DNA of 64,000 nt from an uncultured Veillonellaceae bacterium (lineage in GTDB: Bacteria; Bacillota; Negativicutes; Veillonellales; Negativicoccaceae). The first letter of the stretch is position 1, and each line of letters starts with the position of its first letter. The stretch lies in contig CAMCNU010000001.1 in the NCBI GenBank assembly GCA_945876385.1, positions 124,001 through 188,000 of the forward strand. Direction: 5' to 3'. The notes beneath the pieces were generated by a model that did not search any database, was not told where the DNA came from, and saw only the letters and a program-made list of their open reading frames with translations. A program made the translations under genes and the position numbers. Positions 34,847-59,667 of the stretch are shown here, one piece after another.

Positions 34847-35884
34847 TTATTTTTTCATGTGCTTGGGGGTGTACGGTACGACCGCTTTACCGTTGTCCAA
34901 TGCATCGACGGCTTCTTTCGCGCGTTCCACGAAAATATCTTGGATGGCTTCGTTTTCACCGAGACCGTGCAGGTATGCTTTGACACCAAAGCCTTCTCCT
35001 TCGAGGATGGTCTTGTGGCTGTCTTCTTCATCGCCTGCCATGTCATTATTGGCGTGGTCGCCGGCGACCATCATCATCGGCATCAGCGTTACGTTTTTGA
35101 TGCCGTTGGCTTTCAGCTGGGGAATGACGTCTTCCAAATGCGGACGGCCTTCGACCGAATAGATGAAGACATTTTTCAGACCCATGGAATCAATACGGTC
35201 TTGGATGACCGCGTAGTAAGCGTTGGCCGGATGCGGCGTGCCGTGTGCCATGAAGAGCACCGCTTCGTCGGCTTTCATCGATTTCGGCAATTGCTGTTTC
35301 AGCGCATTGACAAAATCGGCAACTTGGTCGGGTTGCCCTTCTTGACCCATGTAGTACATCGCCGGCGTACCGACAGTCATCTTTTTGAAATCACGTTGCG
35401 TCAATTGTGTGACCAAACGATTGTAGGTGTATTCGATACCCGGTACAATGTTCAAGTTTACCGTCGCAATGCGGGTATAGCCGTCTTTTTTGAGTTGTGC
35501 CAGTGCTTCTTCCGGCGTCAGGTAGGTAATACCTTCGTTCGCCTTGATGCGATCGATGATGATATGACTGGTAAATGCCACGCGCACTTCTTTGTCGGGG
35601 AACGCGTGCTTAATCTTGGAAACTACCCGGTCGATGGTTTTCGCACGGGTATCTTTGAATGTCGTCCCGAAACTCATGACCAAGATAGCGTCTTTATTCG
35701 GTAAGTTTTGCAGCGCGGTGTTTTCACGCACGCGAACGCCGACTGCAGAGGCGCCCAAGAGGGCTTTCGTCGGGTTTTGCACTTCGTCGCTCAATTCATA
35801 TGCCTGAATGTTTCCGCCGCCGATAGCGCAAAATGCGAATGCACAAGTGCTGGCAACTAAAATCCGTTTCAATGTCTGATTCAT
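34847..35884 (-). CDS. cbiK: Exported sirohydrochlorin cobaltochelatase, CbiK family
   Basis: The 345-residue protein has a clear N-terminal signal peptide (basic start, hydrophobic core, NIQA-YE cleavage-like site near residue 28) before the chelatase domain. The metal and acid-base residues of CbiK are visible: His214 in FMAHGTPH, Glu245 in YSVEGRP and His277 in VAGDHANND, with spacing like that of Salmonella CbiK. CbiK inserts cobalt into sirohydrochlorin, the entry step of the anaerobic pathway. An exported form is known in Desulfovibrio (CbiK-P). The gene has its own promoter and a long leader, and is transcribed away from the methylmalonyl-CoA mutase region. Confidence 0.92.
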   Translation of the reverse strand: MNQTLKRILVASTCAFAFCAIGGGNIQAYELSDEVQNPTKALLGASAVGVRVRENTALQNLPNKDAILVMSFGTTFKDTRAKTIDRVVSKIKHAFPDKEVRVAFTSHIIIDRIKANEGITYLTPEEALAQLKKDGYTRIATVNLNIVPGIEYTYNRLVTQLTQRDFKKMTVGTPAMYYMGQEGQPDQVADFVNALKQQLPKSMKADEAVLFMAHGTPHPANAYYAVIQDRIDSMGLKNVFIYSVEGRPHLEDVIPQLKANGIKNVTLMPMMMVAGDHANNDMAGDEEDSHKTILEGEGFGVKAYLHGLGENEAIQDIFVERAKEAVDALDNGKAVVPYTPKHMKK

Positions 35885-36656: not shown

Positions 36657-36695
36657 TGCCGGCGGTTATTATCAGTCAACAATTGCATATTAGCG

Positions 36696-36838: not shown

Positions 36839-36853
36839 TAAAAGTCACCGATT

Positions 36854-43033: not shown

Positions 43034-43054
43034 ATATAACGAGGAGGAATGTTC

Positions 43055-44962
43055 ATGTTAGGGAAAAAGAGTGCTGTATTGGCAATGATTGCGGCAACAT
43101 CGCTGACTGGCGGTGCAGGAGCGGCGAGCGAAGAAATCGTACAGCTCAATCCGATAGTAGTTACTGCACAGCGTATGGAAGTGGATGATTTACAAACGCC
43201 GGCCGCGGTGACGGTGATTACAGGAGAAGAGTTGAAGCGAACAGGTGCCAATACGCTCTTTGATGCATTGTCATTTGTTCCGGGGATAACTAACTTTTCA
43301 TATGGTCCGGGAGGTATGGACTACGGCGCAATGGATAGTCGGGTGAACATTCGCGGGCTTGAAAGAGGAGCGCTTATTCTGGTAGATGGGGTACCGCTCA
43401 ATCTAAATGGCAAAAACACACTTGACGGAATTCCCATGGAAGTAGTTGATAAAGTTGAAGTGTTGAAAGGGTCTGCATCTGTTTTATATGGTGCGGATGC
43501 TTTGTCCGGGGCAGTTAATATCATTACTAAAAAAGCGCAAGCTCCCTCAACAGAAGTTTCTGTCGGGGTTGGTAATGTCGGGCATAGTGTTTATCGTATT
43601 AGTCATGGTGACTCGCAATTCAGATTTAGCATCTCTAAAGAATTTTTTGGAGGTCAGAATCAAACATCTCCGGTTAGATGGGATCGGAAATACTTTAATA
43701 ACCGCGATAAAAGTAACAAGTTGAATTACTCATTTAGCGCGCAATTAATGGAGGGACTTTCATTAAAGTATTTGCGCTCGAAAGCTGATTCTACGTATGG
43801 GCAAATTAATATTTCCAATAACCTTAAGCAGTCACAGCAGTATCACTACAATGATTTGAAACAAAATATTTCGCTAGCTTATGAAAAAGATGATATTGAG
43901 GCAACACTTTTCTATTTGGACAGAAAATTATATGGCGAAGGCCGAAATCTTTATGATTTAGTTTATGCACCTAACAAGTCTAATTTCAAATCGATGAAAT
44001 ACGGGATAGACATTTTGAAGAAGGTTGAGTTTAATAATAAAAATGTATTGACAATTGGCGCAAGTGGAATCAATGAAAAGTATGCCGGGCAGTCCCAGGA
44101 AAACAAGGATGTTCGTGCTGACAGACAAAGTTATGCGCTGTATGGGCAATTTTCGCATGCCATTTCTCCCAACATGGATAGCATACTAGGAGCGCGTTAT
44201 CAACGAATTCAAGACCCGGTCAAAAACCAAAATGTATTTACACCACAATGGCAGCTTCTTTATCGGTTGAATGATGATGCATCAATGTATGTGAATGTGG
44301 GAAAATCATTTACCATGCCGGCGCTGTCGGATACTTTTAAAAAAGTTGAGGGGAAATATTCCGCTATTTCCGGTAAAAATTTGAAACCGGAAGAAGGGTG
44401 GAATTATGAAGTCGGTTATAAAAAAATAACGGATGAAGATTCTCTCAAGATTGCAGTTTACCACATGCGATTCAAAAACTTTTTCGGATGGGAAAAGGAG
44501 GTTAACGAAGTAACGGGGGAAAAATATGATGTTCGCATCAATCAGGGAGAGTTTCGAAATACAGGGGTAGAAATCGAGTATAAACGCATGCTGTCTGATA
44601 GATTGAAGATGGAAATCGGCGCATCTTTCAGCAATCCGAAAAATCAGAAAAAAGCTGGAGGTGTGTGGGAGCAAACATACCCGAAGGTCCAATTGACGAC
44701 AGGTGTAAACTACTCGACAGAAAAATGGACGACCGGCATATACTTGAATTATTGGACAAAGCGGTTGAAAAACCGAGATGGAGGAACAAATCCTGATATG
44801 ATTTCATTGAATTTGTCAGGGGAGTATCGTATTGGTGCGAATGATAGTTGCTTTTTACAAGTCAACAATATTTTAGATCGACGGAATGTAATTACAAACG
44901 GTGCGTGGGAGTACTGGGACTTGCCGTTTAATTTTACACTGACGTATCGACACAAGTTTTAA
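43055..44962 (+). CDS. TonB-dependent outer-membrane receptor (BtuB-like)
   Basis: The 635-residue protein has a signal peptide, a plug domain with NPIVVTAQRMEVDD, TVITGEELKRTGANTLFDAL, NIRGLERGALILVDGVPLN and VEVLKGSASVLYGADALSGAVNIIT, then a 22-strand-type barrel ending in aromatic FTLTYRHKF. It imports a ligand such as a corrinoid or haem through the outer membrane. The ATG at 43055 is well spaced from AGGAGG; the ATG at 43049 is too close. The barrel part is markedly more AT-rich than neighbouring genes. It precedes the cobalamin-riboswitch operon. Confidence 0.92.
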   Translation: MLGKKSAVLAMIAATSLTGGAGAASEEIVQLNPIVVTAQRMEVDDLQTPAAVTVITGEELKRTGANTLFDALSFVPGITNFSYGPGGMDYGAMDSRVNIRGLERGALILVDGVPLNLNGKNTLDGIPMEVVDKVEVLKGSASVLYGADALSGAVNIITKKAQAPSTEVSVGVGNVGHSVYRISHGDSQFRFSISKEFFGGQNQTSPVRWDRKYFNNRDKSNKLNYSFSAQLMEGLSLKYLRSKADSTYGQINISNNLKQSQQYHYNDLKQNISLAYEKDDIEATLFYLDRKLYGEGRNLYDLVYAPNKSNFKSMKYGIDILKKVEFNNKNVLTIGASGINEKYAGQSQENKDVRADRQSYALYGQFSHAISPNMDSILGARYQRIQDPVKNQNVFTPQWQLLYRLNDDASMYVNVGKSFTMPALSDTFKKVEGKYSAISGKNLKPEEGWNYEVGYKKITDEDSLKIAVYHMRFKNFFGWEKEVNEVTGEKYDVRINQGEFRNTGVEIEYKRMLSDRLKMEIGASFSNPKNQKKAGGVWEQTYPKVQLTTGVNYSTEKWTTGIYLNYWTKRLKNRDGGTNPDMISLNLSGEYRIGANDSCFLQVNNILDRRNVITNGAWEYWDLPFNFTLTYRHKF

Positions 44963-45051: not shown

Positions 45052-45080
45052 TTGACTGAATACCATGTGCGTGTTACTAT
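45052..45080 (+). promoter_or_regulatory. Strong promoter of the nitrogenase-like/CobN operon
   Basis: TTGACT (45052-45057) and TACTAT (45075-45080) are separated by 17 bases, and the cobalamin aptamer begins 25 bases downstream, as expected for a riboswitch leader. Confidence 0.8.
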
Positions 45081-45105
45081 GAAGAAGACATCAAAATAAC
45101 AAGTG

Positions 45106-45244
45106 AAGCAGGTGCGATGCATAATAGAGAAGACCGGTGTGAAACCGGCGCGGTCCCGCCACTGTAAGAGGAGCGAATCCATGGCCACTGAGCAATCGGG
45201 AAGGCGGAGGAGCGAGGAATCTGAGCCAGGAGAACTGCCTGTTT
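45106..45244 (+). promoter_or_regulatory. Cobalamin riboswitch upstream of the nitrogenase-like operon
   Basis: AAGCAGG (45106-45112) can pair with CCTGTTT (45238-45244). Between them lie the ACCGGTGTGAAACCGG arm, GCGGTCCCGCCACTGTAAGA, CGGGAAGGCGGAGG and the B12 box GAGCCAGGAGA. A terminator follows at 45287. The operon downstream should be lowered when cobalamin is plentiful. Confidence 0.96.
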
Positions 45245-45257
45245 TAGAAGTATCGGT

Positions 45258-45274: not shown

Positions 45275-45286
45275 AAGATATACAGG

Positions 45287-45310
45287 AAGGGGACACCATG
45301 TCCCCTTTTT
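45287..45310 (+). terminator. Terminator in the nitrogenase-like operon leader
   Basis: AAGGGGAC (45287-45294) pairs with GTCCCCTT (45300-45307) over ACCAT, followed by T residues, 20 bases before the first gene. Its GGGAC could alternatively pair with GTCCC in the aptamer. Confidence 0.88.
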
Positions 45311-45326
45311 GATTGTAAGGGTGGTA

Positions 45327-46142
45327 ATGATGAAAAAAATTGCATTTTACGGAAAGGGCGGCATCGGCAAGTCGACAACCGCATCGAATGTATCCGCGGC
45401 ATTGTCGCTGGCAGGTAAGTCGGTCTGTCAAATCGGTTGTGATCCCAAAAATGATTCGACACGATTGCTCTTGGGCGGAAATTGCCGTTCGACGGTACTG
45501 GATGTCGTCCATGAGAAAGAAGACGAAGTGGAATACGATGACGTCGTTCATACAGGCTTCAACGGTATCCGCTGTATTGAAGCGGGCGGTCCGGAACCGG
45601 GGGTCGGTTGTGCCGGCCGCGGCATCATCGTGGCACTGAAAACATTGGAAGCGTTGGATGCAATCGGTAACCCGGATGTGATTTTGTATGATGTATTGGG
45701 AGACGTCGTGTGCGGCGGCTTTGCCGTACCGATTCGGGAAGGATACGCCGAAGAAATCTATATCGTGACATCGGGGGAAATGATGGCACTGTATGCGGCG
45801 AATAATATTGCCAAAGGGATTTCTCGTTTTGCCAATCGAGGCAAAGTACGTCTGGGGGGATTGATTGCCAACAGTCGCAATGTGCATCGCGAGCGGGAAT
45901 TGATTGAAGCGTTTGCGGAGCGGTTGCATACGAAGCTGATTTGTTTTGTGCCCAGAGATCCGATGGTCCAGCAGGCGGAAATCCGGCGGCAAACGGTGTT
46001 GGAATATGCTCCGGAATGCGAGCAGGCCGGTGTTTATCGGGAGTTGGCAGAGTCCATCTGGAATAATGAAAGCGACTGTATCCCGACGCCGATGGGATTT
46101 GACGAACTGGAAGCGATGGTTTATCACTATGGCAGTCGATAA
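45327..46142 (+). CDS. NifH/BchL-like iron protein (nitrogenase superfamily reductase)
   Basis: The 271-residue protein has the P-loop GKGGIGKST (residues 9-17), a [13 protein letters not shown] segment, and the two cysteines that bridge a 4Fe-4S cluster in the dimer: Cys95 in PGVGCAGRG and Cys129 in [10 protein letters not shown]. These match Cys97 and Cys132 of Azotobacter NifH. Such proteins pass electrons with ATP hydrolysis to a two-subunit partner, which here is encoded next. Homologues with tetrapyrrole substrates are BchL, BchX and CfbC; which is closest cannot be told by eye. A second ATG lies one codon on. It is the first gene after the cobalamin riboswitch. Confidence 0.94.
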
Positions 46143-47427
46143 GCGTCGAACGGTCGTCGCCCAAAACAGTTGCAGTTGTGCAATGCCGGGAGTATGGCGT
46201 GCGGTGGCGCACAACCCGGGATGTGTGGTGGTGTACCACGCCCCGCGGGCATGTACACATGTGACGGGAACGATGGACCTGTACCAACATTATCATGATA
46301 TTGTCGGAAGTGAGCGTGAGAAAGAGCGCTATACGGCACCGTTGGTCAGCACGAATATCACGGATAAACAAACGATATTCGGCGGGGGAAAGTTGCTGGG
46401 GCGCTGTTTGGACTATGTTGCGGAAACATTTCGGCCGCAATATATTTTGCTTGCCAATTCGTGTATCAGCGGTGTTATCGGAGATGATACCGAAGGGATT
46501 TGTCGTGCCAAGGAGCGCGAGCACGGCATACCGATATTAAATACGGAAGCGCACGGCTTTTTGGACGGCGAGTATTACGGCGGATATTGCGACGCGGCCA
46601 AGCAATTGGTTGACCGCTTTATGACACGGCAAGAGGAGCGTTTGAATCAAATTTGCGTGTTGGGAGAAAAAGGCGGTCCGTATTCGCGAAACGCACAGGA
46701 TATTGCCCGCTTGTTTGCGGGGTTTCAAGTCGAGGCGCAACAACGTTTCCCGTCATATTGTTCGCTGGCGGACATGGCGCACATCGCCAAATCACGGTGG
46801 TTGGTTCCTTTGGGCGGATCTGCCAAGGCGTATGAATGGATGACCGGCCTGGCGAAGTACATGGGCGAGAAGTTGGATATGGAAGTGTTTGACGAGGATT
46901 ATCCGGTCGGGATTGAGGAGACGTATCGCTGGATTGCGCGAATGGGAGACTTTTTAGGTCAGCCCGAACGGGTTGCCGATGCACAGCAGCAGGCCCGCAT
47001 CGAACTGGAAGATGCATTGTATCAATACGGCGAATCGCTATCCGGTCAGCATGTAGCGATTGTACTCGGGCGTCGTTTGGCCAACAGCAATCCGCGCTGG
47101 GTATTGGAATTTGTCGGTAAAGTCGGTATGCACATTGACGGGATTGTGTTTATCGGTGCAGGCAGTCGGGGCAGTTGGGCGGACTGGTTGTCCAAGTGGA
47201 AGATACCGGAAGAAATACCTCTATTTGCGGAAGAAGATGCAGAGTCCGTGTTGACAGAGACGGACTTGGTATTGACTACCGTTGAATTGGAGGGGGCGCC
47301 CTATAAACAATTATTTTTACCGATGGTTCCGCCGATTGGGATTGCAGGACTGACCTATATTTATCGGCGGCTATTTCAGTTGTCTTGTTACCGTCGTCGG
47401 CGAGGGGTGATTTTAAATGGCTGGTAA
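46129..47427 (+). CDS. Nitrogenase component 1-like protein (NifD/BchN type)
   Basis: The 432-residue protein has the family layout with cysteines at 15, 17, 32, 42, 93 and 112. These include HNPGC, APRAC and [13 protein letters not shown], the usual region for a bridging Fe-S cluster and the IGDD turn. Later segments [15 protein letters not shown] and IPLFAEED fit the third Rossmann-like domain. It should pair with the next gene product and take electrons from the NifH-like protein. The frame extends upstream inside the previous gene; the ATG at 46129 gives the natural start with a 14-base overlap. The substrate is unknown. Confidence 0.9.
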
Positions 47428-48715
47428 ACAGTGGGAAAATCAATGTCATACTGTATCCAGTTGTGCATTGGCCGGTGCGGCAACATTTTTTGCAGGGATT
47501 CCGGATGCATTTGTCGTAGCCAACGGACCGGCGTGGTGTTATTTTTATGCGTTGCGTAAAGTCGAGCGTCCGGACAACTATATGGCGCAACGTTTTTTTT
47601 CTACCTATGCGGATAACGGCTCGGTTGTATTCGGGACGGAAGAAAAGCTGAGTGCGGCACTGGACCTGGTCGCATCGATGACACCTCCGCCACAAGTCAT
47701 GCTGGTGGAAAACAGCTGTGCCATCAGTCTTATCGGTGATGATATTGCAGGAATTACCGCCCATCACAGTCTTCCCTGTCCGGTCGTGACGATGGATTCC
47801 GGAGGATTGGTCGGAGGACACTGGGAAGGGTACCGTAAAGCGGCATTGGAATATTTTCGCAAGATGCCGCCGGATACAGCAGTCACCAGCGTTGAAAAGA
47901 CCGTTAATTTGTTGGGGAGTGATGCGTCGTATTTATATGAAAACGATGACATGGAGGAATTGCGGCGCATGCTGGGGAAAATCGGCGTGCACGTACATGC
48001 GGTCGTCGGCAACGGCGCGAATGTCGAAACGTTGAAAACGTTGAAAAAAGCCGAGTTGAATATCGTCATCCATCCGGAATGCGGAGAGTCGTTGGCTCGT
48101 TTTTTGCAGGATGAATACGGCATGCCGTATCTCATGTTGCCGCTCCCGTACGGGATGGAGGCAACGGAGAAATGGGTGCACGGTATCGGTGACGCGCTGT
48201 CGTTGCCGGGCGCGGCATATCAGGACATCGATGCGGAAATAGCCGCTACGGAAGAAAAACTGTATCGCTATACTCGTGACGCGCAGAAGGTCTGGGGCGA
48301 GCCGTGGTTTGACACCGTGCTGGTTTGCGGGCCGTCATCAGTGGCGTACGGAATTGCCGGTGCGGTGCGGACGGAATGGGCGGATACGGCGAAGTTGGAA
48401 GTGTTTACTCATGATGAACGCGAAAAAAACAGTGAGGTTGTGTATCCATCCGGTCATGAAATGGCGACAAGCGCAGGTGTGCTGGTGGAGTTGTTGCAAG
48501 CATGCGCCGGATTGGTGCTGGGGTCAGGACACGAGCGTAAAATTATAACGGAACATGCATCGGCGCAATGGCGTTTTGCCGCTATCGCGCAGCCCGATCC
48601 GTTGACGGTGGCATTGACGACGCATCCGCAAATGGGTATCGTCGGGACCTGTGTGATGGCGCAAGAAATTTGGCGAGAACATATTACGTCGCACTATATG
48701 GGGAGAACATCATGA
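47417..48715 (+). CDS. Nitrogenase component 1-like protein (NifK/BchB type)
   Basis: The 432-residue protein has cysteines at 10, 16, 41 and 101, in the contexts ENQCHTVSSCALAGA, NGPAWCYF and VENSCAISLIGDD. The last parallels the same motif of the preceding protein, so the two look like paralogous halves of a heterotetramer. The C-terminal part has VCGPSSVAYGIAG and LGSGHERKI. Its length is close to BchN/BchB and shorter than NifK. The ATG lies 11 bases before the stop of the previous gene, and its own stop overlaps the cobN start as ATGA. Confidence 0.9.
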   Translation: MAGKQWENQCHTVSSCALAGAATFFAGIPDAFVVANGPAWCYFYALRKVERPDNYMAQRFFSTYADNGSVVFGTEEKLSAALDLVASMTPPPQVMLVENSCAISLIGDDIAGITAHHSLPCPVVTMDSGGLVGGHWEGYRKAALEYFRKMPPDTAVTSVEKTVNLLGSDASYLYENDDMEELRRMLGKIGVHVHAVVGNGANVETLKTLKKAELNIVIHPECGESLARFLQDEYGMPYLMLPLPYGMEATEKWVHGIGDALSLPGAAYQDIDAEIAATEEKLYRYTRDAQKVWGEPWFDTVLVCGPSSVAYGIAGAVRTEWADTAKLEVFTHDEREKNSEVVYPSGHEMATSAGVLVELLQACAGLVLGSGHERKIITEHASAQWRFAAIAQPDPLTVALTTHPQMGIVGTCVMAQEIWREHITSHYMGRTS

Positions 48716-51700
48716 AAGTGTTATTTTTGTTGACACGACAAAAGGATGCGGACGAGTACGCTCTCTTAACGGCGGCATACGACAGTTTGGAAGTCGACTG
48801 TGCAACCGTCTCTGCGGCAACGCGCTGGGATGAGATGTGGGAACGTCGGGTACAAGCGGTCGGATATGTAGTGCTGGGACTTGACCCGATTAATTTGACG
48901 GCGGAATTCACGGCCGCGCTCCAATCCTCCACGCAGCGTAACGGTGTTTGTGTTATTGCATTGACCGCAGAGCGGCTGGTATGGGAGAACGAAATCACAG
49001 AACCGAAGCGGAGGCGGTTTTTCCAGTATTTCAAGTATGGGGGAAAAGTCAATCGGCAGTACCTGGTAACCGCACTGAGCAACATTGAGCAGGATCGGGA
49101 CTTACCGCGCCCCGTAGAGATTCCCTGGCAAGGTGTAGTTGTGGAAGATGAGGTCATCTCTTTGGCGGAGTATTGCCGACGACACTTGCCTGCGACGCCT
49201 TCTCCTACCGTCTTGTTTTTGTTCCATCGGGAGCAATGGTTGCGCGGCGAAACGCAAATCATTGACGCACTTTGTGCGGAAACGAAACGACAGGGCGCGT
49301 ATCCGATTGCATTGTTCTGTCAATTCGGTGCGATTCCGGCTGAGCGTTACGAAGGAGTCGGAGCTGTGTTTACGCAAATCGCAGGCGGACTCCCCATTGA
49401 TGCGGTCGTTACCTTGCAGCAGCAAAGTATGACGGGGATGGAAGGATTTGATCCGCAGGTGCTTCTTCGTGCCGGCGTGCCCGTGTTGCAGGCGTATACG
49501 TTGTATACTACGGAAGAGCGTTGGCAACAAAACCCGGACGGCATGGGCAGCGCGGAGTTGGGGACACAGGTGATTTTGCCTGAATTTGACGGGGTCATTC
49601 ACACCAATCCGGTCGCCGCACTTGCGCAAGAGAGCGGTCGCGAGCGGGCATATCGGCCACTGGCGGAACGAATCCGCATGGTGGTAGCCAAAGCAATCGG
49701 ATGGGCAAAGCTGCGGCATGTCGAGACCGCTGTGAAAAAAGTCGCCATCGTACTGCATAATTACCCGCCGAAGAATTCCAATATCGGTTCGGCGGCGGGG
49801 TTGGATACACCGGCCAGCCTGTATCGTTTGTTACGAGAGATGGAGCAGGAAGGCTATGCGGTGGGAGGGCTGCCCGATTCACCGGAAGAATTGATGGAAA
49901 TGGTATTGGCGGTAGCGACAAACGATCGTGCGTGGATCAGTGAATCCTCGCTGCGATTGGCGCAGGGAAAGATGTCCGATGCTACGTATATCGGCTATTA
50001 TCAAACGTTTGCCGCTTCGAATCAAGAAGAGCTTGACGCACATTGGGGGAATCCTCCCGGCGATGTACTTCATTTTGATGATTATTTGTTGATTCCGGGC
50101 ATTGCGTTCGGCAATATCTGGGTGGGAGTACAACCGCCGCGCGGATTTGGTGAGAATCTTTCGGCGGTATACCACAGCCCGACGTTGCCCCCGACCCATC
50201 AATATCTGGCGTTTTATGAGTGGCTGCGTAGCGGCTGGTGCGCGGATGCGGTGATTCATTTGGGTACGCACGGATCGATGGAGTGGCTCCCCGGCAAGGG
50301 GACGGGCCTCTCGGAAACCTGCTATCCGGATCGTTCGTTGCGGATGATTCCCGATATTTATCCGTATTGGATTACGATTGTCGGCGAAGGAATACAGGCA
50401 AAACGTCGCGGAGCGGCCTGCTTAATCGGCCATATGTCACCGCCGCAGGAAGAGGCCGGGTTGTACGGTCCGTATGTACAGCTGGCACGTTTGGTCGATG
50501 AGTATCGTGCCTTGGCCGGACGGAATGCCGCTCCTGAAGAGCTGCGTCAGCGAATTGTTGCCGCGGCAAGTGAGTTGGATTTTTCCGTGCCGGACGGAGA
50601 GGACGAGGCGGAGTGGATCGGACGATTGCATGACAGGTTGGAAGATTTGATGTACTTGCAGATTCGCATCGGTTTGCATGTTTTGGGGCATGTCCCGCAA
50701 GGTGACGAAATAAGTACGTATCTATCCATGTTAACGAATGAACCGAACGGTGAAGTGCCGTCGCTTTTGCAAACGTTCATGGAGACTTGTGCGGATGCCG
50801 ACGGAACCGATTCGGAAACAAGACGAGCGCGGGGACGGTTATTACGTGACGAATGGATACAATGGTTGATTGCGCACGACTATGATGTTACGCGGGCGAT
50901 GCAGTCGGAGTGGGCGGAGAACAACGGAGTCTTGCCGGCCTCTGTATCGGAGTTGCAGACACTTGCGGAATATATCCGCAAGCATATTGTACCGGCATTG
51001 CGGCATACCGTATGGGAACTTACCCATACGGTGCAGGCGCTGGACGGCAAGTATATTGAACCGTCGCTCGGCGGTGCGCCGACTTCCGGAAATGCGGATA
51101 TTTTGCCGACGGGGAGAAACTTCACCTCGGCGGACCCGCGTACATTCCCGACGGAGCAAGCAATGGATGTCGGTGCGGTGCTGGCGGAGCAGGCATTGGA
51201 GCGCTTCATTCAAGAAGAGGGACGCTATCCCGAAAGTATCGGCATTATTTTGTGGGCGACCGCCCAGATGCGCACATACGGTCAGTGCCTGGGAGAAATA
51301 TTTGCGTTGTTGGGGGTACGCCCGATTCGACAAGCAGGTAACGGAAAGATTGTCGGCTTGGAAGTGATTCCGACGTCGGCATTGGGACGGCCGCGCATTG
51401 ATGTGACGGCGCGTATCAGCGGACTGTTTCGCGATACAATGCCTTCCGCCGCTCGTTGGGTGCAACAGGCGACTGATATCGTCGCCAAGCTGGATGAGAG
51501 TACGGAAGAAAATTATGTCCGGAAGCATTTGTTGGAGGATATTGCAGATTTAAAAGCTTCCGGACTGGGGGAGGAGGAGGCCTGGATATGCGCACGTTGG
51601 CGGGTATTCGGCGATCCGCCGGGAGCTTACGGTGCCGGTGTCGGGTCGGTACTGGAAACACAAAACTGGGAAACGAAAGAAGATTTGGCCTCCGTTTATG

Positions 51701-52320
51701 CCCGTTGGTCTTCGTATGCTGTACAGGAAGATGGTCCGGCGATGGCCGCGGAACAGGCGTTTGCCCTTCGATTGCGCTGCATGGAAGTAACGATTCAAAA
51801 TGCGGATAACCGCGAGAGCCATCTGCTGAATTCGGACGATTATAATGCCTATCACGGCGGCTTGAATGCATCGGTGGAAGTAGCTCGAGGCAAAGCGCCG
51901 TTAGCAGTGATGGGGGACAGTTCACGAAGAAGTGCACCGGTTACGCGTACCATTGCCGAAGAAACGGATCGCTTGATTCGCGCGGAGGCGCTGAATCCGA
52001 AGTTTATTGAAGGCATGAAGAAACACGGTTACAAAGGCGCCATGGAATTGGCCAACTATGCGGCGCACTTATACCAATGGGATGCAACCAGTGACGTGGC
52101 AGAAGATTGGATGTATCATCGCCTGGCGCAAACCTATGCGTTTGATGAGGAGATGCAGGCGTGGTGGAAAAAGGTGAATCCGTGGGCCTTAAAGCGTTTG
52201 ACGGAAGTGCTGCTGGAGGCTTGGCAAAGAAAGTTATGGGAGGCGCCGGCGGAAGATGTGCGGATGTTGCAAGAACTCCTTCTCAGCATGGAGGGAGAAT
52301 TGGAAGATGTATCGCAATAA
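48712..52320 (+). CDS. CobN/ChlH-family metal chelatase large subunit, copy 1
   Basis: The 1202-residue protein is full length for CobN/BchH. It has NYPPKNSNIGSAAGLDTPAS, FDDYLLIPGIAFGNIWV, the family hallmark HLGTHGSMEWLPGKGTG (His516 and His520), PSLGGAPTSGNADILPTGRN, DVTARISGLFRDTMPSA and GDPPGAYGAG. With ChlI- and ChlD-like partners, CobN-type proteins insert metal into a tetrapyrrole using ATP; a CobN relative, HmuS, acts in haem use in Bacteroidota. The cell already has CbiK for cobalt entry, so a different substrate or reaction is likely. GGGGAG precedes the ATG. Confidence 0.93.
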   Translation: MKVLFLLTRQKDADEYALLTAAYDSLEVDCATVSAATRWDEMWERRVQAVGYVVLGLDPINLTAEFTAALQSSTQRNGVCVIALTAERLVWENEITEPKRRRFFQYFKYGGKVNRQYLVTALSNIEQDRDLPRPVEIPWQGVVVEDEVISLAEYCRRHLPATPSPTVLFLFHREQWLRGETQIIDALCAETKRQGAYPIALFCQFGAIPAERYEGVGAVFTQIAGGLPIDAVVTLQQQSMTGMEGFDPQVLLRAGVPVLQAYTLYTTEERWQQNPDGMGSAELGTQVILPEFDGVIHTNPVAALAQESGRERAYRPLAERIRMVVAKAIGWAKLRHVETAVKKVAIVLHNYPPKNSNIGSAAGLDTPASLYRLLREMEQEGYAVGGLPDSPEELMEMVLAVATNDRAWISESSLRLAQGKMSDATYIGYYQTFAASNQEELDAHWGNPPGDVLHFDDYLLIPGIAFGNIWVGVQPPRGFGENLSAVYHSPTLPPTHQYLAFYEWLRSGWCADAVIHLGTHGSMEWLPGKGTGLSETCYPDRSLRMIPDIYPYWITIVGEGIQAKRRGAACLIGHMSPPQEEAGLYGPYVQLARLVDEYRALAGRNAAPEELRQRIVAAASELDFSVPDGEDEAEWIGRLHDRLEDLMYLQIRIGLHVLGHVPQGDEISTYLSMLTNEPNGEVPSLLQTFMETCADADGTDSETRRARGRLLRDEWIQWLIAHDYDVTRAMQSEWAENNGVLPASVSELQTLAEYIRKHIVPALRHTVWELTHTVQALDGKYIEPSLGGAPTSGNADILPTGRNFTSADPRTFPTEQAMDVGAVLAEQALERFIQEEGRYPESIGIILWATAQMRTYGQCLGEIFALLGVRPIRQAGNGKIVGLEVIPTSALGRPRIDVTARISGLFRDTMPSAARWVQQATDIVAKLDESTEENYVRKHLLEDIADLKASGLGEEEAWICARWRVFGDPPGAYGAGVGSVLETQNWETKEDLASVYARWSSYAVQEDGPAMAAEQAFALRLRCMEVTIQNADNRESHLLNSDDYNAYHGGLNASVEVARGKAPLAVMGDSSRRSAPVTRTIAEETDRLIRAEALNPKFIEGMKKHGYKGAMELANYAAHLYQWDATSDVAEDWMYHRLAQTYAFDEEMQAWWKKVNPWALKRLTEVLLEAWQRKLWEAPAEDVRMLQELLLSMEGELEDVSQ

Positions 52321-52335: not shown

Positions 52336-53379
52336 ATGATTCAATCAAATTGGGGAAAGTCAAGTATGCTGATGGTGTTGGTGATAGCCTTGGCGAGTTT
52401 GATGATGATGGCATTGTACATGGGGCAAATTCCGGTACCGGCCAGTTCCGTTTTCCATGATTGGGCCCTGCGACTGGGGTGGAATGTCAGTTGGGGCGAG
52501 TCTTTGACTCCGGAGCAAAACGCGGTATTGTGGTATATTCGCTTGCCGCGCATTTGCGTCGCCATCCTGGTCGGCAGTGCGTTGGCGATAGCGGGTGCCG
52601 TGATGCAGGGAGTGTTCGGTAACCCGCTGGCAGATCCGGGAATTATCGGTGTGTCCGCGGGGGCATCATTCGGCGCGGTCATTGCGGTGAGCTTGGGGTT
52701 GACGTCGGCGGGTATGTTTTATATGCCGGCCTTTGCCTTTATCGGCGCCTTTGCATCGGTCTTACTGACCATCAGCTTGACCATGCGAGGCGGCAAGATT
52801 CCGACGATGAGCTTATTGTTGGCCGGTGTTGCCGTCAGCATGCTTCTCGGTGCCTTGACCAGCGGTATCTTGACCTTTATGAATGAATACCGCTTGAAGG
52901 AGTTCCTGTTTTGGATGGTCGGCGGATTGGATTATCGGCGCTGGGAGCATGTCTATTTAGCGATTGTCCCTATTCTCATAGGTATGTCTGTGTTGTGTTT
53001 GTTGTCTCGCCATTTGAATGTGCTGGTACTTGGGGATGTAGAGGCGAAATCCCTGGGATTGCCGGTTGTTTGGTATCGGATTTTGTTTTTGGGACTGGCG
53101 TCCGTCATTACGGCGACAGCGGTTTGTGTCAGCGGTTCAATCGGGTTTGTCGGTCTGATTGTGCCGCATATTATGCGTTTGCTGATTGGTCCCGATCATC
53201 GTTTGCTGTTGCCGGCGTCGGCCTTGGCAGGAGCGCTGTTTCTTCTGTTTTGTGATACCTTGGGGCGCACGATTATGCCGCCGACAGAAATTCGGGTGGG
53301 CATTATGACGGCGTTGCTCGGTGCGCCGTACTTCCTGTTTCTTTTGCGGCGGATGCGTCGGCATGGAGGTGCGTTCTGA
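52336..53379 (+). CDS. FecCD-family ABC transporter permease
   Basis: The 347-residue membrane protein has about ten hydrophobic segments and the FecCD signatures LWYIRLPRICVAILVGS, GNPLADPGIIGVSAGASFG, LGDVEAKSLGLP and GFVGLIVPHIMRLLIG. It is a paralogue of the 29709 permease. It forms the channel for import of the cluster's ligand. GAGGGGAGAG precedes the ATG; its stop shares one base with the ATPase start. Confidence 0.92.
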   Translation: MIQSNWGKSSMLMVLVIALASLMMMALYMGQIPVPASSVFHDWALRLGWNVSWGESLTPEQNAVLWYIRLPRICVAILVGSALAIAGAVMQGVFGNPLADPGIIGVSAGASFGAVIAVSLGLTSAGMFYMPAFAFIGAFASVLLTISLTMRGGKIPTMSLLLAGVAVSMLLGALTSGILTFMNEYRLKEFLFWMVGGLDYRRWEHVYLAIVPILIGMSVLCLLSRHLNVLVLGDVEAKSLGLPVVWYRILFLGLASVITATAVCVSGSIGFVGLIVPHIMRLLIGPDHRLLLPASALAGALFLLFCDTLGRTIMPPTEIRVGIMTALLGAPYFLFLLRRMRRHGGAF

Positions 53380-54584
53380 TGGGGCGTGAAATTTTACAGG
53401 CGACTGATATTTCGGTAACGTTAAATGATACGGCAATTATTCACAAGGCGTCGTTGCGTTTGCAAGAAGGGGAATTTGTCGGTGTCATCGGGCCGAACGG
53501 TGCGGGCAAAAGTACTTTGCTTAAGGCCATTCGGGGTATCGTGTCCCGCATCGGCGGCGATGTCGTGCTGCAGGGCAAGCCGCTCGAGCAGTATGCGGAA
53601 AAAGAGATTGCTCGGGAATTGGCATTTATGCAGCAGGATATGCATGTAGGATTCGGATTTACTGCAGAAGAAGTGGTACTCACATCCCGATATCCGTATC
53701 TGGCCTGGTGGGAAAACGAGAAGAAAGATGACTATCGTATTGTAGAAGAATGTATGCGATTTACCGGTGTCTATCATCTGCGCGATAAGATTGTCAATCA
53801 GCTTTCCGGCGGGGAGCGGCAGCGTGTATTGCTGGCCAAAGTATTGGCACAGGAAACGCCGATTATTTTCTTGGATGAGCCGACCGCCAGTTTGGACTTG
53901 GTGTACCAAGAAGAGATTTTCCGGTATTGTCGGTCGCTTACGGAACGCGGAAAGACGATTGTGATGATTTGTCATGACTTAACGATGGCAGCGCGCTATT
54001 GCTCGCGTTTGGTTCTTTTGGCGCAAGGCGCTATCTGTGCAGACGGTAAGCCGGAAGAGGTAATGACGGCAGAGAACTTGGTCAATACATTCGGGCTGCA
54101 TTCGATTGTCTATCGGAATCCGATTTCAGGGTATTTGGATTTGTATACGTATGAAAAGCGCGGGGCAGTGCAGGATACACAGGCCGTTGTCGGGGCGGTC
54201 GTGTGCGGTGAAGGTGAAGAAGCCGCACAATTGTTACGGACACTGTATGTACGCGGTGTTCCGTTTGAAGTCGCTCCGGCGGCGAAGAATTCGGTTGCCG
54301 CGTATCGAGCATCCGTGTTCGGCGTGCCGGTGCGATCTGCCGAAAATTGTCTGGCCTCGGAGGATGTCGGGAGGCCGACGGTGTTGTTCGGTTACGGGAT
54401 ACAATGTGAAGCGGAATGGCAGTGGTTTTTGCGTATGTCCAAGCAAGCCGTACGGGTGTATTGCGACGCAGAAACGGCGGAGCGTTTCGTGCATGCGGAG
54501 GCGGATAAGTCGGTGATACAGCAGGAAAAGTGGCATGTTCTTTCATCGGAAGAAGCATTGCAACGGGAGTACGGCACATTGTGA
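53379..54584 (+). CDS. ABC transporter ATPase with C-terminal extra domain
   Basis: Residues about 1-260 are a FecE/BtuD-type ATPase: Walker A GPNGAGKST, LSGGERQRVLLAKVLAQ, Walker B IIFLDEPTASLDL and the H-loop ICHDLTMAARYC. Residues about 265-401 form an added domain with VVGAVVCGEGEEAAQLL, a nucleotide-like GxG start, and no recognised catalytic motif. Similar tails occur on some cobalamin-type ATPases of about 400 residues. It works with the preceding permease. The stop overlaps the GTG start of the radical SAM gene. Confidence 0.9.
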   Translation: MGREILQATDISVTLNDTAIIHKASLRLQEGEFVGVIGPNGAGKSTLLKAIRGIVSRIGGDVVLQGKPLEQYAEKEIARELAFMQQDMHVGFGFTAEEVVLTSRYPYLAWWENEKKDDYRIVEECMRFTGVYHLRDKIVNQLSGGERQRVLLAKVLAQETPIIFLDEPTASLDLVYQEEIFRYCRSLTERGKTIVMICHDLTMAARYCSRLVLLAQGAICADGKPEEVMTAENLVNTFGLHSIVYRNPISGYLDLYTYEKRGAVQDTQAVVGAVVCGEGEEAAQLLRTLYVRGVPFEVAPAAKNSVAAYRASVFGVPVRSAENCLASEDVGRPTVLFGYGIQCEAEWQWFLRMSKQAVRVYCDAETAERFVHAEADKSVIQQEKWHVLSSEEALQREYGTL

Positions 54585-55669
54585 ACGAGTCGGTCAATAC
54601 ACCTGTGTGCGCAGTCGATGGCGAGATGCACAGTGACATACGGATGTTGATTTTGGCACTTACCGGTGCATGCAATTTCCGCTGTACCTATTGTTATGCT
54701 TCCGCACAGACGCCGGTTAAAATACCTCGGGCGGCCTTGCGCTGGGCACTGGATTTGGCCGGCGCATCCGGAAATCCGTTCGTGGTACAATTTACCGGTG
54801 GAGAGCCGCTACTGGCGTTTGAGCGTCTGGTGTATGCGGTCAATTATATTCGCGAGAAAAAGTATCCGGCGACATTGCAGATTCAGACCAATGCAAGCTT
54901 AGTCACGCCGACGATTGCCAAGTACTTGGCGGCGGAAAAAATCGGTGTGGGAGTAAGTCTGGACGGCGGCGTGGAAGCCAATGACGCGGCACGTCAATAT
55001 CCGGACCGGAGCGGTACCGCTACCGACATCATGCGCGGCCTGCAAATACTGGCACAGGAAGGCGTTGCTGTCGGTATGACGTGCGTAGTTGGTGCGCATA
55101 ATATCGATTCCTTACAATCCGTAGTGGATATGGCTTACTATGCAGGTAATGTCCGGAAGTTGGGATTCGACTTACTCCGACCGCAAGGGCGTGCGCATTC
55201 GCAATCGGTTGTCAGCGAAGAGGAGATGGCAACGGCATTGCGTGCGGTAATGCAGCGAGCGGATGAGTTGGAACGATTGACCGGTCAGCATCTGATTTTT
55301 GTGCATGGACAGCGGGTGGCGCAATTGGAATCGGGGCGTACGGAAGTGTTTGCCCATTGCTATGCAATGACACATCATGCACTTTTTGTGAATCCGCTGG
55401 GAGAGTGTTACGCTTGCGCATCGCTTTCCGCGTATCCGCAGTTTCGTATCGGGTCATATCAAGAAGGTCTGCGGCAACGCGCCGGGCAAGCCGCATCCGA
55501 GGAAATACGCAAGGCGATGGAGCGTTGCTATCGTTGTGAATTTTTAGACACTTGCGGCGGCGGTTGTTATGCACGCTGGGCCGGAGGAAGTACGGCCCAT
55601 GAAGCGGAGTGTCGATTGAAACAAATGTTTATTTATCGCTATGAGAAACAAAAAGGGGGATTACGATGA
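54581..55669 (+). CDS. Radical SAM protein with SPASM-type C-terminus
   Basis: The 362-residue protein has the radical SAM cluster motif CNFRCTYC (Cys31, Cys35, Cys38), FTGGEPLL, and a C-terminal set of cysteines (about 276, 279, 316, 319, 325, 329 and 343) in [20 protein letters not shown] and AECRL, the SPASM pattern for extra Fe-S clusters. Related enzymes mature peptides or modify tetrapyrroles (AhbC, AhbD, NirJ). The tetrapyrrole setting favours the latter, but no small peptide gene or specific motif proves it. The start is taken as GTG at 54581, overlapping the ATPase stop; an ATG at 54626 is possible. Confidence 0.87.
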
Positions 55670-56697
55670 AACGCAGAAATTATCCGTTTACGGCTATTGT
55701 AGGGCAAGAAATGATGAAAAAGGCATTGATTTTAAATGCGATTAACCCTTCTATCGGCGGCGTTTTGATTAAAGGGGAAAAAGGCACCGCCAAATCAACG
55801 GCAGTTCGTGCATTGGCGGATGTGTTGCCGCCGATTATGGCTGTGGAGGGATGTCCGTTTCGGTGTGACCCGGCGGAGCCCGGGCTCTATTGTCCCGAGT
55901 GTGCGGCGAAGGCGCAACGCGATGAACGTATGCCGACGTTGGAAACGCGGATGAAAGTCGTCGAGCTGCCGGTGAATGCAACGGAAGACCGTGTGGTGGG
56001 GACGTTGGATTTGGAACATGCCATTACCGAGGGGAAAAAGAAGTTTGAACCGGGTATTTTGGCAGAAGCCAATCGAAATATTTTGTATGTCGATGAAATC
56101 AATTTGTTGGACGATCATGTAGTGGATGTGCTCTTGGATGCCGCGGCCATGGGCGTCAACACGGTAGAGCGAGAAGGGGTCTCGGTGTCCCATCCGGCTA
56201 AATTTGTATTAATCGGCACGATGAATCCGGAAGAAGGCGATATTCGTCCTCAATTGCTTGACCGTTTCGGCATGTCCGTCGAGGTATATGGCGAACACGA
56301 AGCTTCACAACGGGTAGAGGTCATTAAGCGACGCCTGGCATTTGAATCGAATCCTGAGGAATTTTGTGCGGAATATGCACAAACGCAGCAAGAGCTGGCG
56401 GAACAATTGCTGGCGGCGAGAGATATTTTGCCGACGGTAGAAGTTGCGGACGAGATTTTGCAACAGGCCGCAGAGTTGTCGATTCGCTTGGATGTGGATG
56501 GACATCGGGCCGATATCACGATGCTGAAAACTGCGATTACGATAGCCGCTTGCGATCGCCGCAATCAAGTGAGTCCCGCTGATTTGCGGGAGGCGGCAGT
56601 GTTGGTATTGCCGCATCGGATGCGTCGTCGTCCGTTTGAAGAAACGGGATTGGATATGGCGGTAATTGACGAAGTGCTGGGACAGGATCACGCATGA
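55666..56697 (+). CDS. ChlI/BchI-like AAA+ chelatase subunit
   Basis: The 343-residue AAA+ ATPase has [16 protein letters not shown], Walker [10 protein letters not shown] (residues 37-45), Walker [14 protein letters not shown] and sensor [19 protein letters not shown]. Between Walker A and B is an insert with four cysteines (63, 67, 76 and 79) that could hold a metal or Fe-S site. With a ChlD-like partner it powers the CobN-type subunit. The start overlaps the radical SAM stop, and its stop overlaps the ChlD gene. Confidence 0.93.
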
Positions 56698-58658
56698 CGA
56701 TGAGATATTTGTATCCGTTTGCCGCCGTTGTAGGTAATGATGACGTGAAAGAAGCGCTGCTGATTGCATTGGTCAATCCGCGTGTCGGCGGAGTCTTGAT
56801 TTCTGGCGATAAAGCCAGTGCCAAGACAACTCTTATTCGCGCATCGGCAGCGTTGACACCGATGCGCATTGTCGAGTTACCGCTGTCGGCTACTGAAGAC
56901 AGAATTTTCGGGCATATCGACTTGGAAAAGACGCTTGCGGACGGCCGCAAGGTGTTATCGGAAGGGCTGTTGGCTGCAGCGCATCACAATATTTTGTATA
57001 TTGATGAAGTCAATCTTTTGCGTCGAGATGTATTGTCCGCGGTGCTGCAAGCACATGATTTGCAGGAAAATCGAATTGAGCGGGAGGGCATTTCCTATCG
57101 TCATGATGCCGATTTTTTGCTTGTCGGCAGTATGAATCCGCAAGAGGGCACGCTGGACGCTTCCGTGCTTGATCGTTTCGGCCTGTTCGTCAACGCGGAG
57201 GCGAGTGATGAGCCGGCGCAGCGAGTCGAAATCATGCGCCGAGTGCTTCAATATGAACGAGACCGCATTCGATTCGTAGATAGGTATGCAGAGGAGACGG
57301 CGTCACTGCAGGAACAAGTCCGCAAGGCTGTTGTGTTGGTTGCGGCGATGAAGCCGCCGGCACCGATGTTGCAATTGGCGGCGGCATATGCGGAAAAAGC
57401 TTGGCTGGCAGGTCATCGGGGTGATGTTATTTTACTTGAAGCGGCCAAGGCGATTGCGGCGTTGGCCGGACGCTCTTTTTTGATACCGGAAGACATGGAA
57501 CGAGCAGCGTATTTTGTTTTGCCGCATCGAATGCGCAAGCCTCCGGCGGCACCGCCGCAAGAGTCGGAAAGCGAAGAGCAGGAAGAATCGTCCGCAGAGG
57601 ATACCGATACCGCTCCGGCAGAGGATAGCACCGAGCGAGACGGAGATGAAAATCAGAACTCCGGTGAGGACAGCGGTGCAGAAGACAGCGACTATCCGGA
57701 TACTCCGCATACGGAATCCGAGCCGGAAAATAATACGACAGATGAACCGCAGGAAGAAGAGGACTCCGCGGAGGAAAATACAGACTACCATTCACAAGCA
57801 CCGCTTCCGCCGGAGAGTTGGGAAGATATTGATAAGGCGTTGGCACAACTGCAATTGCAAATGACGACCGGAATGGATCGGCACGAACGTAAGGGGAGCG
57901 GTAAGCGGCAGCGAACCAAAACGAATCTGCGGCAAGGCCGGTATATTCGTGCTGCGTTGACCGGTAAGAAAGTAACGGATTTGGCTCTGGATGCGACCAT
58001 TCGGGCTGCCGCTCCCTATCAGCGGCACCGTAATCGAGGCGGATTGGCGATAGCGTTGACCGAATCGGATTTGCGGCAAAAAGTGCGTGAAAAACGGACA
58101 GGGACTGTATTTTTGTTTTGTGTCGACGCCTCCGGCTCAATGGGTGCCAAACATCGCATGGGAGTTGTTAAAGGCGTTATTTACGGACTGCTGCAAGATG
58201 CATATGAGAAGCGTGACCGCGTCGGACTCATTACCTTCCGCCGTGAGCAAGCGGAGGTGCTGTTGCCGATTACACGCAGTATCGATTTGGCGCAGCGTGA
58301 ATTACGGGAATTACCGACCGGCGGCAAAACGCCGTTGGCGGCCGGAATGCAGTTGTCGCTTGCGACGTTACAGCAGCTACGCTATCAGGATGCGGAAGTC
58401 AGACCGGTATTTATTTTGGTGACGGACGGCAGAGCGACCGCCGCACTGCAAGACGGCAACCCCGTGGCCGATGCCGAGCAGTTGGCAACGGTGTTCAGGA
58501 GAGCCAACATTACTTCCGTAGTGATTGATACGGAAACCGATTTTATCAGTATGGGCATTGCGAAAAAAATCGCAGAACTTATGGGAGCTCATTATTATCA
58601 CATGAAGAGGTTGTCGGATGAAAATGTGCTGGCGATTGTACAGGATTTGCGTATATAG
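56694..58658 (+). CDS. ChlD/BchD-like chelatase subunit (AAA+ plus VWA)
   Basis: The 654-residue protein has an N-terminal AAA+ domain with a variant Walker A (GDKASAKTT), intact Walker [11 protein letters not shown] and [19 protein letters not shown]. An acidic low-complexity linker (about residues 285-375, rich in Glu, Asp, Ser and Pro) follows. The C-terminal von Willebrand A domain has the MIDAS motif DASGSMG near residue 478 and VTDGRAT. This is the ChlD layout that joins the AAA+ ring to the large chelatase subunit. Two large subunits in the operon may share it. The next gene starts 41 bases before its stop. Confidence 0.93.
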
Positions 58659-59667
58659 CTGCCTGGTGGTGCTGCTATGCTCGTTGACTGCATGCAGCTA
58701 TGTGTTGCCGCAGCCGGAAACAAAGCGAGTCGTCATCGACGGATTGGGGCGTCCGATATCGTTACCGGAAAAACCGCAACGCGTGATTGCGTTGGATATT
58801 GCTACGAGCGAAATTTCCATGTTACTTGTCCCGTATGAGCGATTGATTGCGGTCAGCTATTTTATGGATGACCCGGGCATTTGTAATTTGAGCGTGGAAG
58901 CGCAAGCCATTCCCGGACGCGTCGAACGCAGTGTGGAGCATATTCTCTCCTTGGAGCCGGATTTGGTTCTGGTGACGTCGCCCGGCAAGGATGACTTGCG
59001 GACACAGCTGGAGGATATCGGTATTCCGGTGTTTGTGATTGCACGACCGTACAGTGCGGAAGATATCGAGACGAACGTGCGTATGCTGGGAGACGTATTG
59101 GGGAATCCTGCGCAAGCAGAAACGTTGTGCCGCGCGATGGAGACGGACTTGGAACGCATTCGCACCGCCATCGCACAGGTAAATCCGGCGCGTCCGCAAC
59201 GCATTTTGCGTATCAGTCGTATCGGTCCGTTAGGCACCAAGGGGAGCAATGTAGATGCGGTGATTCGGGAAGCGCAATGCATTAATGTCGGTGCGGATAT
59301 CGGTCTCGGCGAAGGCGTATTGCTGCAAGAAATATTGTTACAGGAAAATATCGATAAGCTGTTGTTGCCGACATGGGATTTCAAGGGTAGAGATCACTTG
59401 GAGGAATTGGCGGAGTATTATGCTCAGGATCCTGCATGGCAAACGGTGCCTGCGATTCGAGAGCGACAGTTTATCTATATTCCCGATTATTTATTAACGG
59501 CGCAGACGCCGTATCGCATTTTTGCGACCGGGGAATTGGCAGCGCGTGCATATGGGATTACTTGGGAAAGCGAACTCATGCCGCTTTTGCCGAAGAGCAG
59601 CATTCGTCAAGCGGACTGGGCCAATCCCGCAATCGGCGCGAGTATCGTGTATAAGGAAGATATCTGA
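58618..59667 (+). CDS. ABC binding lipoprotein 1 (BtuF/FecB family)
   Basis: The 349-residue protein has a lipoprotein signal with lipobox SLTAC (cysteine near residue 26). Then come IDGLGRPISLPEKPQRVIALD, EHILSLEPDLVLVTSPGKDD, a long linking helix and AARAYGITW, as in type III metal-chelate binding proteins. It would deliver ligand to the FecCD permease of the operon. The start ATG lies inside chlD; a second ATG two codons on is an alternative. Confidence 0.88.
   Translation: MKMCWRLYRICVYSCLVVLLCSLTACSYVLPQPETKRVVIDGLGRPISLPEKPQRVIALDIATSEISMLLVPYERLIAVSYFMDDPGICNLSVEAQAIPGRVERSVEHILSLEPDLVLVTSPGKDDLRTQLEDIGIPVFVIARPYSAEDIETNVRMLGDVLGNPAQAETLCRAMETDLERIRTAIAQVNPARPQRILRISRIGPLGTKGSNVDAVIREAQCINVGADIGLGEGVLLQEILLQENIDKLLLPTWDFKGRDHLEELAEYYAQDPAWQTVPAIRERQFIYIPDYLLTAQTPYRIFATGELAARAYGITWESELMPLLPKSSIRQADWANPAIGASIVYKEDI

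Follow-up and report, generated by a model that had tools for sequence, protein, structure and literature searches.

The nflHDK genes encode a nitrogenase-like trio in a 64,000-nucleotide stretch of contig CAMCNU010000001.1 from an uncultured Veillonellaceae bacterium (hereafter the window), where they lie downstream of a cobalamin riboswitch. Our reading, of moderate confidence, is that NflHDK is a nitrogenase-superfamily enzyme that uses ATP to drive a low-potential reduction of a corrinoid, or of a tetrapyrrole closely related to one, during salvage or metal exchange. Because the operon, which is predicted to be shut off by B12, carries B12-type transport and metal-insertion genes, NflHDK probably serves ATP-driven corrinoid reduction rather than nitrogen fixation. 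A corrinoid reductase is also the simplest reading, since it covers the regulation, the gene neighbours, the pairing with a chelatase and the absence of the large cofactor. To our knowledge, the reactions of this superfamily are few (N2 reduction, cofactor maturation, the ring reductions of (bacterio)chlorophyll and F430 synthesis, and C-S bond cleavage), and we know of no characterised nitrogenase relative that acts on B12-type rings. If the reading is true, corrinoids join the list of nitrogenase-superfamily substrates. There is a fair chance that NflHDK represents a new reaction class. We found no account of the NflHDK family in a corrinoid setting in the open-access literature, which leaves aside what subscription papers may contain. 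The three genes are as follows:

45330..46142, plus strand: nflH, iron protein, 270 amino acids (aa); NCBIfam nifH 411 bits (cut-off 394), Pfam Fer4_NifH 385 bits
46129..47427, plus strand: nflD, component-1 alpha-type subunit, 432 aa; Pfam Oxidored_nitro 161 bits
47417..48715, plus strand: nflK, component-1 beta-type subunit, 432 aa; Pfam Oxidored_nitro 173 bits

An in-frame ATG at 45327 offers an alternative start for nflH. All three frames are intact and recur in many genomes at 30-54% identity, and they are therefore not chance open reading frames (ORFs). NflH contains the P-loop GKGGIGKST and the cluster cysteines C94 and C128, which are invariant across 14 sequences, while NflD and NflK both retain the NSC...IGDD segment. 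An iron protein with a P-loop and two cluster cysteines, together with two Oxidored_nitro subunits, places the trio in the nitrogenase superfamily. A first-pass annotation, made from the letters of the window, had described the iron protein and a pair of unfused component-1 proteins with these same motifs, and its description stands in each of these respects.

A nitrogenase-like trio at the head of a probable corrinoid operon

The interval upstream of nflH contains three candidate control elements:

45052..45080, plus strand: promoter-like site (hexamers TTGACT and TACTAT separated by 17 nt, the second preceded by TG); weak, from a consensus scan only
45093..45256, plus strand: cobalamin riboswitch aptamer; RF00174 95.2 bits (gathering score 31.5), E 2e-22
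45284..45312 (approximate ends), plus strand: intrinsic terminator hairpin between riboswitch and nflH, GGAAGGGGACA-CCA-TGTCCCCTTTTT; fold -19.6 kcal/mol, z -3.8

The promoter-like site is directly upstream of the riboswitch, which ends 73 bases before nflH, and a T run follows the hairpin. A generic terminator scan, whose tail rule is stricter, does not list this hairpin; among 13 nfl loci headed by a riboswitch, 12 have a hairpin of at least nine paired positions with a T-rich tail in the corresponding position, compared with 16% of shuffles. Aptamer and downstream switch element together are the features of a cobalamin-riboswitch regulon, and the predicted logic is that transcription of the nfl operon stops when corrinoid is present. 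RF00174 also directly precedes nfl in 9 of 20 other sampled neighbourhoods searched with Rfam. A covariance model built for this work, used because scanning for B12 boxes by regular expression had overlooked several known riboswitches, places a riboswitch before nflH in further loci such as those of Sporomusa ovata, Anaerospora hongkongensis, Pelosinus and Phascolarctobacterium faecium, some of them from the same genomes as the sampled neighbourhoods.

Behind the trio, the operon continues unbroken with chelatase, transport and radical SAM genes:

48712..52320, plus strand: CobN/BchH-type large chelatase subunit; NCBIfam TIGR02257 cobN 865 bits (cut-off 822); start overlaps the nflK stop (ATGA)
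52336..53379, plus strand: BtuC/FecCD-type ABC permease; best NCBIfam model vitamin B12 permease BtuC, 303 bits, under the cut-off of 461
53379..54584, plus strand: BtuD-type ABC ATPase; best NCBIfam model corrinoid ABC transporter ATPase, 282 bits, under the cut-off of 537
54626..55669, plus strand: radical SAM/SPASM-like protein; PF04055 55 bits; start uncertain, ORF open from 54530
55666..56697, plus strand: ChlI-type AAA+ chelatase subunit; TIGR02030 438 bits (cut-off 467), TIGR02442 511 bits (cut-off 779)
56694..58658, plus strand: ChlD-type chelatase subunit, an ORF whose AAA+ part and VWA-like end were judged by reading the sequence
58618..59667, plus strand: periplasmic binding lipoprotein of the BtuF/FhuD kind; weak matches to BtuF and related models
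59679..60572, plus strand: second periplasmic binding protein; PF01497 Peripla_BP_2 90 bits
60574..64000, plus strand: second CobN; TIGR02257 956 bits; extends beyond the window end, complete in L008:4575-8309

Adjacent genes overlap at nflH-nflD, nflD-nflK and nflK-cobN, and again from the permease through chlD. Both CobN proteins score above the model cut-off (865 and 956 against 822 bits) and share the operon with I and D subunits, as a CobN/ChlID-type chelatase requires; ChlI/ChlD pairs also recur in the nfl neighbourhoods of other genomes. The radical SAM protein matches no named subfamily above cut-off among the NCBIfam models. The transport genes find their best matches in B12 models, though under the curated cut-offs. 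The first-pass annotation had described the trio as lacking nif, bch or cfb partners nearby, but an absence of tetrapyrrole partners does not hold: CobN/BchH-type, ChlI and ChlD genes lie directly downstream, the riboswitch lies just upstream, and cbi genes and a CbiK gene are found elsewhere in the window.

One further transport gene stands upstream of the riboswitch:

43049..44962, plus strand: TonB-dependent receptor, BtuB-like; PF00593 plus Plug

This receptor aligns over nearly its full length to the B12-receptor model, at 123 bits and under all curated cut-offs. A TonB receptor, a FecCD-type transporter and a CobN-like protein together recall the hmu layout of Bacteroidota, where receptor, transporter and the CobN-family protein HmuS are likewise grouped in heme operons (PMC13227078), and one neighbouring receptor scores best to a hemin model. 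Acquisition of heme or porphyrin for iron is nevertheless improbable here. The riboswitch senses cobalamin, not iron or heme, the transporter subunits score best to B12 models, and the neighbours include CbiZ, CbiR-like, adenosyltransferase and CbiK genes. Furthermore, the described hmu operon has no nitrogenase-like gene, and HmuS has a signal peptide and membrane helices (PMC13227078), whereas the CobN of the nfl operon is accompanied by ChlI and ChlD.

Conserved cysteines, a missing cofactor site and family placement

Three cysteines in NflD (C17, C42 and C112, in 47/47 sequences) and three in NflK (C16, C41 and C101, in 52/52) are invariant and align to the P-cluster columns of NifD/NifK and MarD/MarK, giving each component-1 subunit the three interface-cluster cysteines of nitrogenase and methylthio-alkane reductase (Mar). 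Loss of key cysteines on alignment, which would have spoken against an active complex, was thus seen in none of the NflD and NflK sequences, nor in the 14 of NflH. Six cysteines are insufficient as proof of a P-cluster: all three are present in a Negativicutes NifN too. At the cofactor-cysteine column (NifD Cys275, MarD Cys270), NflD has glycine in 11 of 12 sequences and serine in the remaining one, and the column of NifD His442 is a gap. No TIGR01290 match to nifB was found genome-wide at E up to 10, and NflD and NflK are the only two PF00148 proteins in the genome, which therefore contains no separate nifDK or nifEN; the absence of nifB, nifE and nifN, first claimed for the window, thus extends to the whole genome.

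A large cofactor of the nitrogenase or Mar type is very unlikely in NflDK, judging from the replaced cysteine, the gapped histidine column and the absence of nifB. The pocket would consequently be able to take up a different substrate, as it does in the reductases of chlorophyll and F430 synthesis, and tetrapyrrole-reducing BchN and BchY likewise lack the cofactor cysteine. A tetrapyrrole is more likely than a metal cofactor to occupy the NflDK pocket, and the earlier view of NflHDK as probably an active nitrogenase-like reductase, not a nitrogenase, is upheld. The ligand pattern is also a natural test of the role of an interface cluster without a large cofactor.

NflH exceeds the NCBIfam nifH cut-off, and the trio has the H-D-K order of nitrogenase and, as in NifHDK and NifEN, interface cysteines in both subunits. 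Even so, it is almost certain that NflHDK is neither a true nitrogenase nor a cofactor maturase: the cofactor ligands corresponding to Cys275 and His442, nifB and a second component-1 pair are all absent, and NflD and NflK fall far under every named NCBIfam model, with scores of 84 and 97 bits for NifE, the best of them, that are about a fifth of its 505-bit cut-off or less. Nitrogenase and maturase functions are thereby refuted on their defining features.

B12 riboswitches often control B12-independent bypass enzymes, and a Mar-like or other small-molecule reductase could serve as such a bypass when B12 is short, for example in methionine supply. The nearest profile to NflD is MarD (141 bits, followed by NifEN and NifD, with BchB at 43), the H-D-K layout is that of MarHDK, and all six Mar-type interface cysteines are retained. 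We regard this explanation as highly improbable. MarD Cys270, which binds the Fe8S9C cluster (PMC12552129), is replaced by glycine or serine, and nifB/marB is absent; no sulfur genes occur in the operon, where nfl is instead mixed with chelatase and corrinoid transport genes. In a 62-sequence tree, MarD with MarD-like proteins (100/99) and MarK with MarK-like proteins (100/99) both exclude NflD and NflK. Each of the two forms a clade of its own (100/100 for NflD, 100/99 for NflK), separate from Nif, Mar and Bch, in a tree that contains no CfbD, whose Bch rows are long and whose deeper branching is unresolved.

The first-pass annotation had also placed the component-1 proteins closer to BchN/BchB than to NifD/NifK, which is borne out in part. 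In AlphaFold2 models (NflD predicted local distance difference test score 85.7; NflK 89.1) compared by Foldseek, the predicted NflK fold is nearest to BchB of DPOR (template-modelling (TM) score 0.80), and BchB is close in the NflK profile ranking (NifE 134, NifD 122, BchB 111 bits). For NflD, the nearest profiles are those of MarD and NifE, with BchB far behind, and the nearest folds are Nif and Mar chains at modest TM scores of about 0.6-0.7. The ligand set, moreover, is of the NifDK/MarDK kind, and both subunits lie in their own clades. DPOR (BchLNB) and the Mg-chelatase BchHID offer a close parallel in layout, a nitrogenase-like reductase without a large cofactor paired with an H-I-D chelatase, and the nfl layout may work like that pairing in chlorophyll synthesis. 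The ligand pattern of BchB, with an aspartate replacing a cysteine, is absent from NflK, which keeps all three cysteines, two of them missing in BchB. The nfl genes stand among corrin genes under B12 control rather than among chlorophyll genes, and the nfl operon holds no bch pathway genes beyond the chelatase-type subunits.

CfbCD of F430 synthesis is a further nitrogenase-like reductase acting on a metallo-tetrapyrrole (Ni-sirohydrochlorin a,c-diamide), and CbiA, the cobyrinic acid a,c-diamide synthase, is encoded just beyond the window. CfbD is homomeric (PMC12552129), unlike the two different Nfl subunits, and the Cfb models TIGR03282 and NF033200 score 29 and 28 bits against a cut-off of 268, with CfbC at 387 against 402. 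The defining features tested place NflHDK outside the DPOR, Mar, Nif and CfbCD families. It is plausible, although somewhat less secure than the assignment of a corrinoid-type substrate, that NflHDK forms a new branch of the superfamily acting on the corrin ring or its cobalt, in which the six-cysteine interface set of nitrogenase is combined with the empty cofactor pocket of a chlorophyll-type reductase; the enzyme would then supply an H-I-D chelatase during corrinoid salvage or metal exchange under B12 control.

Recurrence with corrinoid genes and possible reactions

Of 300 sampled Negativicutes genomes, 139 contain NflK relatives (E up to 1e-10), although the weaker matches are to other proteins of the superfamily, for example of the Nif and Mar types. 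Full-length Nfl members are present in about a quarter to a third of the Negativicutes sampled, which include many bacteria of the gut and mouth. The contigs of 84,980 species yielded 60 nfl loci, nearly all from Negativicutes, plus Pelotomaculum propionicicum. Corrinoid or chelatase genes lie beside nfl in 35 of the 41 loci of at least 18 kb, among them genes for a binding protein (30), CobN (29), BtuC (29), ChlD (25), CbiZ (22), CbiR-like proteins (17) and radical SAM proteins (17). In Pelotomaculum propionicicum, the row runs adenosyltransferase, nflHDK, binding protein, permease, ATPase, CobN, radical SAM protein, nitrilase and CbiZ, without an outer-membrane receptor. CbiZ and CbiR are enzymes of cobamide remodelling, and PF01261 is the superfamily to which CbiR belongs (PMC7733943); the CbiR-like assignment at nfl loci is by Pfam AP_endonuc_2 (PF01261) and context only. 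We found no description of CbiZ/CbiR systems with nitrogenase-like or CobN-ChlID genes.

CobN is present in 35/40 genomes with nfl and in 7/40 without it (p 3e-10), and by genus in 20/23 against 3/20 (p 2e-6), in tests that ignore shared descent. The anaerobic corrin-synthesis marker CbiD occurs in 59/59 good nfl-containing genomes and in 61/72 good genomes without nfl. Only two nfl-containing genomes, both incomplete (73-75%), lack CbiD, and nfl as a pure salvage marker, in organisms without de novo corrin synthesis, was rejected on this count.

One specific reaction scheme would have NflHDK reduce the corrin macrocycle of unusable corrinoids, CobN-ChlID remove the cobalt, and CbiK return it to de novo synthesis. 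Such recovery of cobalt is possible but rather unlikely. It fits the strong pairing with CobN and the near restriction of nfl to genomes with CbiD, though this second link is weak because most nfl-negative Negativicutes have CbiD too. CobN, ChlI and ChlD are the canonical ATP-driven metal-inserting set, which runs counter to removal, and some nfl-containing genomes have no CobN. A CobN homologue, HmuS, does act in the heme metabolism of Bacteroidota, but HmuS proteins are membrane-anchored, unlike soluble CobN (PMC13227078).

In a second scheme, NflHDK would use ATP to reduce Co(II) to Co(I), either for a corrinoid adenosyltransferase or to free bound upper ligands. An adenosyltransferase gene adjoins nfl in Pelotomaculum and two Pelosinus loci and also follows in the window genome, and the Pelosinus loci show nfl with CbiK, CbiZ and BtuC in the absence of CobN. 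The Co(II)/Co(I) couple needs a very low potential, a further point in favour; other reductases, however, make Co(I) elsewhere. The adenosyltransferase is found in only 5/41 loci, and the pairing with CobN, ChlID and radical SAM genes would be left unexplained, making this scheme doubtful. Both schemes are specific forms of the corrinoid-reductase reading, and confidence in them overlaps with confidence in it.

Besides the uncorrected descent in the co-occurrence tests, several observations weigh against a corrinoid substrate. Selenomonas and most Phascolarctobacterium loci have no riboswitch before nfl, and one nfl-containing genome has no cobalamin riboswitch at all. The genes occur without CobN in Pelosinus-type and Veillonella-type genomes and in one further genus, and Succiniclasticum-type loci have nfl without any corrinoid neighbour. 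The three interface cysteines in both subunits are a Nif/Mar trait and not a DPOR trait. Finally, nfl-adjacent receptors score nearly as high to heme and siderophore models.

The sequence itself shows the operon, its riboswitch, the intact cluster ligands, the lack of a cofactor site, the recurrence and the association with CobN. Taking NflHDK as a corrinoid reductase, we infer its substrate, reaction, cluster type and order of steps as follows. When cellular corrinoid is low, the riboswitch would let transcription pass the terminator, and the operon would be expressed. The TonB receptor, binding proteins and BtuCD-type transporter would import a corrinoid, whose lower loop CbiZ and CbiR-type hydrolases may trim in relatives. 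NflH would then hydrolyse ATP and pass electrons into an Fe-S cluster bound by the three NflD and three NflK cysteines, from which they would reach a substrate in the pocket equivalent to the nitrogenase cofactor site. Reduction would alter the ring or take cobalt to a low-valent state, and the product could pass to metal insertion or exchange by CobN-ChlI-ChlD, or to an adenosyltransferase, returning a usable cobamide. If true, this would assign a function to CobN-ChlID in bacteria whose anaerobic route already provides for early cobalt insertion, and would make NflHDK a concrete candidate step in gut cobamide salvage, with culturable carriers that include Sporomusa ovata and Selenomonas.

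Corrinoid genes of the window and diverged nfl relatives

Two further features of corrin metabolism lie in the window, apart from the nfl operon:

23403..29682, plus strand: cbiD, E, T, F, G, H, J and C, anaerobic corrin-ring genes
34847..35884, minus strand: CbiK-type cobalt chelatase; PF06180 285 bits; N-terminus signal-peptide-like

CbiD matches PF01888, and CbiJ (PF02571, 245 bits) is encoded at 28254-29036; replacement of this corrin-ring reductase by Nfl is thereby ruled out in this genome. A binding protein gene adjoins the CbiK gene, and this neighbour together with the signal-peptide-like N-terminus suggests that CbiK is a periplasmic chelatase. Beyond the window end, the second CobN is followed by the PF01261 TIM-barrel (CbiR-like) protein, and the same region contains another cobalamin riboswitch, ExbB-ExbD-TonB, CbiL, CbiA and the corrinoid adenosyltransferase.

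Methylmalonyl-CoA mutase genes are also found upstream of the nfl operon. A second cobalamin riboswitch in the window (36682-36851, 84.6 bits) precedes mutA/mutB of this B12-dependent enzyme. It would be odd for B12 to repress an enzyme that depends on it, and the element may therefore work as an ON switch or regulate something else. On either side of mutA-mutB-meaB, at 36327-36656 and 42574-42933, lie genes for two small proteins that resemble each other, one of which weakly matches the DnaA N-terminal domain.

Among the relatives, second and diverged nflD-nflK pairs (L132, L133, L134, L142 and L143) group inside or beside the NflD and NflK clades, which suggests subfamilies with different substrates. 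Another very diverged component-1 pair, of 431 and 407 aa, lies outside the named groups (L140:1530-4045). Pelosinus-type genomes encode a lone second nflK-like gene (L063:5541-7217, also L094 and L128). The L063 copy directly follows a cobalamin riboswitch, one of the nine found in sampled neighbourhoods, and its product may have lost catalysis, given its altered IGDD motif (NSC...SNDD). In rumen Succiniclasticum-type bacteria (L090, L091, L092, L097, L101 and L126), nflHDK stands alone, with neither corrinoid genes nor a riboswitch nearby. Tandem cobalamin riboswitches occur on the minus strand of L009 (11222-11391 and 11492-11663), where, after one short unassigned ORF, the next recognisable downstream gene is cysteine desulfurase-like on reading its sequence, followed by mnmA.

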